Positions 31,269 through 33,686 of a DNA stretch of 64,000 bases are shown here, piece after piece. The position numbers and the translations under genes are program-made. This DNA comes from Meiothermus sp. GTDB taxonomy: Bacteria > Deinococcota > Deinococci > Deinococcales > Thermaceae. Within the stretch, counting starts at the first letter, position 1; each line of letters begins with the position of its first letter. Below the pieces are notes generated by a model, which did not search any database, was not told the DNA's origin, and saw only the letters and a program-made list of their open reading frames with translations. The stretch covers positions 187,803 to 251,802 of the forward strand of contig NZ_BPIJ01000002.1 in NCBI RefSeq assembly GCF_026004055.1. The letters are read 5' to 3'.

Positions 31269-31315
31269 GACAGGCCAGGAAGAAAAAAGTTATACTAAGT
31301 ACAAGAAGTTTGTGT

Positions 31316-31405
31316 AAGGAGGTGAACCAGCGCCGAACGCTAGAAGCCAAAAGCCAGGAGCAAAACACTTTTTGGCCTGAAGCCTTTAGCCTTCTGCCGT
31401 CCGCC
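31316..31405 (+). repeat. heptamer tract separating a Shine-Dalgarno from its start codon
   Basis: A perfect AAGGAGGTGA (31316-31325) is followed by units AGCCAAA, AGCCAGG, AGCAAAA (31345-31365), a short centre, then GGCCTGA, AGCCTTT, AGCCTTC. The second half is roughly the inverse of the first. The ATG follows 12 bases later at 31406, far too distant from the ribosome site for normal use. Confidence 0.65.
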
Positions 31406-32551
31406 ATGCCCATAGACTTTAGCCTGACCGACGAACAAAAAGAACTGCAAAAACTAGCCCGTCGCTTCGCCAGGGAGCAGATTGCCCCCATCGCAGCAGA
31501 GTACGACGCCAAAGAGGAGGTACCCTGGGAGGTAGTGGAAAAGCTCCACGAGGTGGGCCTCTTGAACGCCATCATCCCCGAAGAGTACGGGGGTTTGGGG
31601 CTGGGGATGCTCGAGGAGGTGATCATCGGCGAGGAGCTGGCCTGGGGCTGTATGGGCATCTACACCATCCCCATGGCCTCCGACCTGGGCATTACCCCCA
31701 TCCTGCTGGCGGGAACGCACGAACAAAAGCAGCGCTTTTTCAAAAAACTCACCGAGAAGCCGGCCCTGGCGGCCTTTGCCCTCTCCGAGCCGGGCAACGG
31801 CTCCGACGCAGCAGCGCTGCGGACGCGGGCCGTGCGCGAGGGCGACCACTACGTGCTGAACGGCACCAAGACCTGGATATCCAACGGTGGCGAGGCTGAG
31901 ACGGTGGTGGTTTTTGCGACCATCGCCCCTGAGCTGCGCCACAAAGGGGTAATTGCCCTGGTAGTGGAAAAGGGCACCCCCGGCTTTAGCGCCCACAAAC
32001 TCCACGGCAAGATGGGCCAGCGGGCCAGCGGCACCTATGAGCTGGTCTTCGAGGACTGCCGGGTGCCTGCCGAGAACCTGCTGGGCCAGGAGGGCGACGG
32101 CTTCAAGATTGCCATGCACACCCTGGACAAAACCCGCATTCCGGTGGCGGCGGGCAGTGTGGGGGTGGCCCGGCGGGCCCTGGAAGAAGCCACCAAATAC
32201 GCCAAAGAGCGCGAGGCCTTTGGCAAGCCCATTGCCGACTTCCAGGCCATCCAGTTCAAGCTGGCCGAGATGCTGATGGGCATCGAAACCGCCCGTGCTT
32301 ATACCTACTACGCGGCCTGGCTCACCGACCAGGGGCTGCCCCAGGCCCACGCCGCCGCCATTGCCAAGGCCTACGCTTCGGAGATGGCCTTCGAGGCGGC
32401 CAACCAGGCTATACAGATCCACGGCGGCTTTGGCTACATGCACGAGTACCCGGTGGAGAAGCTCTTGCGCGACGTCAAGCTGAACCAGATTTACGAGGGC
32501 ACCAACGAGATTCAGCGGCTGATCATCGCGCGGCATATATTGAGTCAATAG
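31406..32551 (+). CDS. acyl-CoA dehydrogenase
   Basis: 381 residues from MPIDFSLTDEQKELQKLARR. Family motifs: FALSEPGNGSDAAALRTRAV, YVLNGTKTWISNGGEAETVV, REAFGKPIADFQAIQFKLAE, and the C-terminal YEGTNEIQRLIIARHIL with the catalytic Glu. It oxidises an acyl-CoA at C2-C3 and passes electrons to ETF, whose genes follow at 32940. The frame continues upstream to a GTG at 31322 within the ribosome site, which would add 28 residues encoded by repeat sequence; ATG 31406 matches the family N-terminus. The chain-length preference cannot be told. Confidence 0.95.
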   Translation: MPIDFSLTDEQKELQKLARRFAREQIAPIAAEYDAKEEVPWEVVEKLHEVGLLNAIIPEEYGGLGLGMLEEVIIGEELAWGCMGIYTIPMASDLGITPILLAGTHEQKQRFFKKLTEKPALAAFALSEPGNGSDAAALRTRAVREGDHYVLNGTKTWISNGGEAETVVVFATIAPELRHKGVIALVVEKGTPGFSAHKLHGKMGQRASGTYELVFEDCRVPAENLLGQEGDGFKIAMHTLDKTRIPVAAGSVGVARRALEEATKYAKEREAFGKPIADFQAIQFKLAEMLMGIETARAYTYYAAWLTDQGLPQAHAAAIAKAYASEMAFEAANQAIQIHGGFGYMHEYPVEKLLRDVKLNQIYEGTNEIQRLIIARHILSQ

Positions 32552-32577
32552 TCTATAGCCGATGGTCTATAGCCAAA
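32550..32577 (+). repeat. heptamer tract, left flank of the four-helix-bundle remnant
   Basis: AGTCTAT, AGCCGAT, GGTCTAT, AGCCAAA. The first unit begins inside the acyl-CoA dehydrogenase stop codon. Confidence 0.75.
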
Positions 32578-32597
32578 AACATTTCTATGGAAAATAG

Positions 32598-32899
32598 ACA
32601 GCGCAAAGCTCGGCCATTAAGCAGCAACGGCTTTTTGGAGCTGCCAACTCGATTGCGCCCAACATTGCTGAGGGAAAAGGGCGCCGTACCGACAAGGACT
32701 TCTGCCGCTTCCTGTACCAGGCTCGAGGTTCCCTACTCGAAACTGTTTGTTCGCTACACCTTGCCGTTGAGCTCGGCTTTTGCAACAGGCCGCAATTCAA
32801 CCCCTTTACGATCAAGCCAGCACCTTAAATGGTAAGCTCAACGCCCTGCTCAAAAGCCTAGACACCAACTTTAATCGAACCCTGACGATAGACCACTGA
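32598..32899 (+). pseudogene. four-helix-bundle (S23/23S rRNA intervening-sequence type) protein remnant
   Basis: One frame reads LFGAANSIAPNIAEGKGRRT followed by DKDFCRFLYQARGSLLETVC and SLHLAVELGF. This is the core of the four-helix-bundle family (typically RRAANSIAxNIAEGxGR...FLxxARGSLxE). After GGCTTTTGC the frame shifts: the other frame continues QAAIQPLYDQASTLNGKLNA and LLKSLDTN, consistent with loss of one T in the TTTT run. The first 35 or so codons of the family are absent. So the gene is 5'-truncated and frameshifted. Heptamer tracts in opposite orientation bracket it, suggesting it arrived as a unit between the dehydrogenase and etfB. Confidence 0.75.
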
Positions 32900-32918
32900 C
32901 CATAGACTATAGACCCCT
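32884..32918 (-). repeat. heptamer tract, right flank of the four-helix-bundle remnant
   Basis: Plus strand reads GACGATA, GACCACT, GACCATA, GACTATA, GACCCCT. Its reverse complement contains GGTCTAT and AGTCTAT, the same units as the left flank, so the two tracts are inverted. Confidence 0.75.
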
Positions 32919-32939: not shown

Positions 32940-33686
32940 ATGAAATTCATAGCAGTCATCCGACAAGTACCCGACGGCGAGTCCCGCCTCAAGATCGAGG
33001 GGGGCAAGGTAGACCTCAACGGGGTCACGATGATCCTCGATCAGATGGACGAATGGGCGGTGGAGGAGGTCATAAGGCTTCAGGAAAAACACGGTGGTGA
33101 GAGTGTGGTGGTGGCCCTGGGCCCCGAGCGTTTCGAGGAGGCCATCCGCACTGCGCTGGCCATGGGCATAGACCGGGCCGTTCACCTGGTGGCCGAGGGC
33201 TACACCGACCCCATTACCCAGGCCGAGCTCCTGGCCGAGACCCTGCGAGCCGAAGCCCCCACCCTGGTTTTTACCGGCGGGCAACAGGCCGACTGGGACT
33301 CCCAGGCGCTGGGGCCGGCCCTGGCCGAAGCGCTGGGCTGGCCGGTGGTGAGCTGGACAACCCAGATCGAACTGGAAGGCGAGACCCACGCCAAGGCCAA
33401 ACACGACCTCGACGAGGGCGCCGAGGTAGTGCGGGTGACCCTGCCGGCGGTCTTCACCAGCCAGCAGGGCCTCAACGAGCCGCGCTACCCCACCCTGCCG
33501 GGCATCATGAAGGCCAAGCGCAAGGAGCTGAAGAAGGTGCCCGTGAGCGCCTCGAGCAAGGTCGAGGTGCTGGAGCAGACCATCCAGGAGCGCACCCGGC
33601 TCAACAAGCTAATCGACGGTAAAGACCCCGTGGCCGCCGCGCACGAGCTGGTGCGGCTCTTGCACGAAGAAGCAAAGGTGATTTAG
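32940..33686 (+). CDS. etfB: electron transfer flavoprotein beta subunit
   Basis: 248 residues beginning MKFIAVIRQVPDGESRLKIE. The EtfB nucleotide-binding pattern is seen in DQMDEWAVEEVIRLQEKHGG, ESVVVALGPERFEEAIRTAL and TLVFTGGQQADWDSQALGPA. The signature loop VTLPAVFTSQQGLNEPRYPT is present. With EtfA it carries electrons from acyl-CoA dehydrogenases to the quinone pool. TTTGGAGG is 6 bases before the ATG. etfA follows after 75 bp containing a heptamer tract. Confidence 0.95.
   Translation: MKFIAVIRQVPDGESRLKIEGGKVDLNGVTMILDQMDEWAVEEVIRLQEKHGGESVVVALGPERFEEAIRTALAMGIDRAVHLVAEGYTDPITQAELLAETLRAEAPTLVFTGGQQADWDSQALGPALAEALGWPVVSWTTQIELEGETHAKAKHDLDEGAEVVRVTLPAVFTSQQGLNEPRYPTLPGIMKAKRKELKKVPVSASSKVEVLEQTIQERTRLNKLIDGKDPVAAAHELVRLLHEEAKVI

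Follow-up and report, generated by a model that had tools for sequence, protein, structure and literature searches.

A probable dead copy of a small mobile element with an S23 gene between inverted heptad arrays

Between an acyl-CoA dehydrogenase gene and etfB, in a window of 64,000 nt (the whole stretch of DNA analysed), lies a broken gene of the S23 family bracketed by degenerate heptamers (Table 1), which raises the question of what this block is and how it arrived there. The block as a whole (32543-32915) is an imperfect inverted repeat of 7-nt units with arms of 32 nt, 78% complementary and 307 nt apart. None of 1551 control pairs, each made of two 70-nt stretches taken elsewhere in the window at the element's own spacing, reached the 25/32 match of its arms (maximum 23), and only 0.025% of positions in the window have a 21-column lag-7 score as high as those of the two tracts. 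The left tract overlaps the dehydrogenase stop codon and the right one stops ~14 nt short of the GGAGG of etfB. The gene between them matches PF05635 over profile positions 35-92 with 57.7 bits, the curated cut-off being 33.8 bits. Alignment to intact orthologs from the same site revealed a deletion of ~115 nt, with its junction near 32636/32637, and a second lesion, the loss of 1 nt near 32778; the copy is therefore dead. An earlier, sequence-only reading had described a truncated and frameshifted S23 gene, a heptamer left flank with an inverted right flank, and tracts reaching the dehydrogenase stop and the etfB ribosome site, and it was right on all of these. The block is probably what is left of a small, autonomous mobile element of ~420 bp, composed of a heptad array, an S23 gene and an inverted heptad array, with the S23 protein as the proposed mover.

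Table 1. Features of the block and of its two host genes, in window coordinates
Feature	Position	Strand	Basis and remarks
Acyl-CoA dehydrogenase gene, upstream host	31310..32551	+	Sequence resemblance and sequence-only reading; TAG stop 32549-32551 within left tract
Left terminal tract, degenerate heptamers AGTCAAT AGTCTAT AGCCGAT GGTCTAT AGCC	32543..32575	+	Repeat analysis of window
S23/IVP gene remnant	32587..32889	+	PF05635 match 32631-32804; alignment to intact orthologs G003, G004, G015
Right terminal tract, the left tract inverted	32884..32915	+	Repeat analysis of window
etfB, downstream host gene	32940..33686	+	Ribosome site right behind right tract

The orthologous site was fetched from relatives with etfB as the anchor. 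An intact S23 gene occupies it in six related genomes (G003, G004, G005, G006, G015 and G022), a remnant or altered copy in G000 and G002; G009 and G018 have bare tracts, that of G009 with the final S23 codons still attached. Several further species are tract-free at the site, but too diverged to give an exact junction. Two versions of the unit were seen, a GTCTATA type and a GGCTATC type, with both arms changing in concert. It is likely that the site received one old insertion that then decayed and was lost in places. The source genome also holds two intact S23 genes (121 and 114 bits to PF05635) within operons of, by resemblance, ABC permease/ATPase and trpE/trpG genes, and both are flanked by inverted tracts of 7-nt period with quite different units. 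Besides the element's own tracts the window contains no further strong lag-7 tract, and a pattern search, the method used for all genome-wide array counts here, found a single exact GTCTATNGTCTAT site in the source genome, namely the element itself. Bare tracts, which the sequence-only reading had placed elsewhere, are common in sister genomes.

A wider sample, drawn from 41 relatives and from 80 loci of many phyla, archaea included, gave 87 usable S23 loci. The flanks matched themselves best at a lag of 7 or 14 at 69 of these, and a strong lag-7 tract lay within 160 bp of the S23 gene at 70%, against 2.9% of control windows placed more than 600 bp away at the same loci. Compared with the reverse complement of the downstream flank, the upstream flank gave a median score of 17 (9 for mismatched pairs), and inverted complementarity exceeded the 95th percentile of mismatched pairs at 59% of loci. 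Heptad flanks are mostly inverted arrays, with a unit that varies from element to element; at three loci (L011, L022 and L029) the inverted tracts are built of 8-nt units. The sequence-only reading had staked itself on intact family members carrying heptamer flanks. Inverted heptad arrays indeed accompany both intact genes of the source genome and most sampled S23 genes, with ~30% of loci under the lag-7 threshold, in part through degenerate tracts or misplaced starts. The S23 gene is co-directional with both neighbours at 50 of the 87 loci and antisense at 6. On a Nostoc edaphicum plasmid (L146, 1380-1930) an antisense S23 element was seen between ribonucleotide reductase beta and alpha genes, counter to the co-directional trend.

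Such co-directionality, together with etfB-site copies that are orthologous in several species, would suit S23 elements that are immobile, vertically inherited features of operons acting as transcript stems. Plasmids of Nostoc, Trichormus, Aulosira and Scytonema speak against this. For the S23 element of pNsp_a (L142, unit AGTCAGA) the sister plasmid pNsp_c (L144) has an empty site, AGGTTCTAGGTTATGC, with flanks 91-93% identical; one gene beyond this site pNsp_c has an S23 element of its own, with the unit GGGAAAA, and there pNsp_a is empty. Four loci on Trichormus, Aulosira and Scytonema plasmids (H38-H41) are homologous to the pNsp_a element over ~418 bp only, from tract to tract, and lie in unrelated surroundings. 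Gene-less elements were sought by comparing 45-kb regions of Nostoc plasmids. One of ~170 bp (L148:882-1057) is nested within an S23 gene whose element belongs to its own unit family; it has an exact empty site, as does one of ~105 bp at a stop codon (L256), whose unit is that of the plasmid's S23 element; L257 and L258 provided more gene-less elements with exact empty sites. A polymorphic gene-less element at L257:6137-6294 has the unit CAATTCG. The junctions have 0 to ~6 bases in common, a variable number without constant target duplication. Exact empty sites had been the other point on which the sequence-only reading depended, and they were found for intact and gene-less elements alike, at flank identities of ~90% or more. 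Its view of bare tracts as leftover or minimal forms is likewise supported, by the last S23 codons kept in G009 and by gene-less elements that are polymorphic insertions. The family thus has two marks of mobile elements, exact empty sites and one element at unrelated loci, and by these comparisons elements of the S23 type are shown to be mobile. Immobility of the family is refuted by the empty sites, the unrelated loci and the nested insertion, and a purely vertical origin, which would also have to accommodate S23 elements on plasmids and within 23S rRNA, is very improbable. A single Nostoc query gave no S23 match in phages, and 14 well-known genomes taken as controls gave no PF05635 match.

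The same insertions bear on whether the arrays are ordinary simple-sequence repeats generated by replication slippage, with S23 genes there by chance. Array length does vary widely, the longest arrays (L222) having more than 20 exact units, and slippage may alter array length after insertion. The empty sites, however, are free of any repeat, so that slippage as the only origin is rejected; moreover the gene-less elements are exact insertions, the arms are inverted and matched within each element, and the ends have common subterminal motifs. We regard this explanation as scarcely credible.

Mobile S23 elements were also met inside genes. Ten of the sampled elements lie within DNA methylase-like coding genes (L062-L065, L067, L068, L095, L096, L100 and L116). 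In all ten the host frame is open throughout, with an intact S23 gene in another frame at a constant offset; in a comparison set an alternative frame was open across the S23 gene in 1 of 84. Methylase-like homologs of relatives without the insert have IPPRFAGQPPVNPEARKDKNLFGREWKGAQGLAEDVRYYG, 40 residues, where those with the element have 168. The methylase-borne element seems to be tolerated as an in-frame linker and is an overlapping-gene arrangement created by a mobile element. In G286, three equal-scoring S23 copies lie on three contigs (C1:1263904, C2:2215636, C3:371725), and the two that were looked at (L290, L291) sit within 23S rRNA. One of these intervening sequences (IVSs), analysed in detail, has the inverted heptads AGTTATC-AGTGAAC-AGTGAAC, and hence rRNA IVSs are the same type of element, at least in the G286 case. 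The IVS of Coxiella rRNA is 428-444 nt long with a 28-bp terminal stem and an ORF inside, RNase III excises the RNA stem of such rRNA-borne copies, and mobility of IVSs has already been proposed (PMC4990558). The 23S rRNA IVSs of Leptospira, Coxiella and Alphaproteobacteria resemble the present elements in protein family, size, terminal inverted repeats and internal ORF; they differ in being described in rRNA only, whereas the window copy lies outside 23S rRNA. In the papers on IVSs that were searchable we found no heptad structure, intergenic or coding-gene insertions, gene-less relatives or exact empty sites.

The relation of arrays to the S23 gene was followed in the Xanthomonadaceae. S23 is present in 64 of 149 genomes, mostly as a single copy, at accB/accC, carA/carB or apparent ribonucleotide reductase genes, and GGGATTC/GGGAATC units flank it at accB/accC. 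Exact GGGATTC dimers number up to 369 in one genome. At least 20 of them occur in 30/64 genomes with S23 and in 2/85 without (p=1.6e-11, kinship ignored), and at least 40 in 26/64 and 0/85, respectively. For GGGACYC, at least 10 dimers were counted in 17/64 genomes with S23 against 1/85 without (p=1.7e-6, kinship ignored), the median being 124 in genomes whose carA/carB S23 gene carries this unit and 0 in the accB/accC-type set. The array unit tracks that of the resident S23 gene's flanks (p=6.6e-5 and 0.025, kinship ignored), and the gene-less elements of G113 and G140 have subterminal GNAAGAGCGG / CCGGCTCTTAC in common with the S23 element resident in the same genome. No gene-less element junctions were recovered in Xanthomonadaceae with a G113 region, the relatives being too diverged. 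The association of arrays with S23 repeats in Thermales (9/20 vs 0/21, p=5e-4) and in the family of Bosea sp. (5/18 vs 1/131, p=8e-5), kinship being ignored in both.

The fold of the protein was considered next to these counts. A structure model of the G004 ortholog (pLDDT 89.6) matches 2gsc (XCC0516) with a TM of 0.92, so the predicted fold is the four-helix bundle of 2GSC/2RLD; 2GSC, a solved relative, has five chains and is described as a pentamer. An R-S-N-E-R helix bears conserved polar residues, R56, S60, N64, E67 and R71 in the first sequence of the S23 alignment A3. XCC0516 is also the solved structure nearest to the G113 protein and comes from Xanthomonas campestris, a species with reported GGGAATC arrays. 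After 2gsc the next match of the model is Avd of diversity-generating retroelements (4dwl, TM 0.85 by target length). The resemblance of Avd to PF05635 has been published before (PMC10053308). Sequence identity is ~8%, and membership of the S23 element in diversity-generating retroelements is unsupported, there being no reverse transcriptase in it. The S23 protein might be a passenger that binds RNA and serves in RNA processing or regulation, while some other factor of the host or plasmid, such as a RAYT-like or IS enzyme, moves the arrays. No nuclease motif is known in S23, its relative Avd has an accessory role beside a reverse transcriptase, and some genomes lacking S23 are rich in heptad arrays (98 in G050, 26 in G086 and 33 in G095). 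Against a passenger role, S23 is the sole gene of these ~420-bp elements and the arrays enclose no other recurrent gene; array abundance and unit track the resident S23 gene in Xanthomonadaceae, and the link to its presence replicates in two more clades. We therefore hold a passenger role to be unlikely and keep S23 as the candidate mover.

Which known class such an element would join was also asked. The sequence-only reading had supposed a system without a known transposase, and S23 as the sole gene fits this. A DDE insertion sequence does not agree with that gene content or with the inconstant junction bases, nor an HUH element with a four-helix-bundle protein. In REP/RAYT (TnpA-REP) systems there is usually one protein gene per genome between inverted short repeats, along with many gene-less copies with the same ends; constant target duplication is lacking, RAYT is a Y1/HUH transposase and the ends are REP hairpins. 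S23 elements are alike in usually having a single gene per genome between inverted repeats, in their many gene-less copies with the ends of the master element and in the lack of constant target duplication; they differ in that the protein is a four-helix bundle rather than a Y1 HUH transposase and the ends are tandem 7-nt arrays. S23 elements occur across bacteria and seem to have spread hundreds of gene-less copies. Intergenic heptamer arrays of orphan status are familiar from the STRR of Calothrix. Others have been reported as GGGAATC in Xanthomonas and GGGGA(C/T)T in Nostoc (PMC4692102), and as TAACTGA in Beggiatoaceae and cyanobacteria (PMC4679880); neither paper mentions S23 or four-helix proteins. 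The Xanthomonas GGGAATC arrays include 70 convergent pairs and differ in location between Xcc and Xac, as expected of mobile elements, and their unit is among those flanking S23 at accB/accC. Several of the published orphan arrays probably belong to the S23 element class, of REP/RAYT-like architecture with S23 in place of the transposase. The link between S23 and heptamers was not found in the literature searched, a scope outside which subscription papers and bioRxiv preprints fell.

Taken together, the elements end in the arrays, form exact polymorphic insertions and have gene-less insertions with the same ends, and high array numbers are found mainly in genomes whose resident S23 gene has the same unit; this correlation strongly implies that S23 drives the movement. 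We propose that each S23 protein would recognise its family's own heptad arrays and, much as RAYT acts on REP elements, promote insertion both in cis and in trans. Since neither a constant target-site duplication nor a classical transposase gene is present, the strand chemistry would come from host enzymes, by an ssDNA or cDNA route, or from a new activity of S23, in which no catalytic motif was identified. Surviving copies are mostly those at stop/start junctions within operons, co-directional with the host genes, and the sense bias (50 vs 6) may stem from selection for operon polarity or from a step that involves RNA. Once transcribed, the arrays can form a stem of the kind by which RNase III cuts out the rRNA-borne copies.

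In the broadest form of this proposal, to which we give an even chance, S23 would found a new kind of transposition protein that acts on tandem heptad ends and mobilises the S23 gene itself as well as hundreds of gene-less elements in bacteria and archaea; it would also be the source of rRNA IVSs and of most unexplained intergenic heptamer arrays. If this were true, it would define a widespread class of prokaryotic transposable elements without a recognised transposase and assign a function to a large family of 'unknown' proteins for which structures have been solved. It would also show how rRNA intervening sequences arose, a question dating from the 1990s, and account for heptamer arrays that have so far been taken as regulatory or quadruplex elements.
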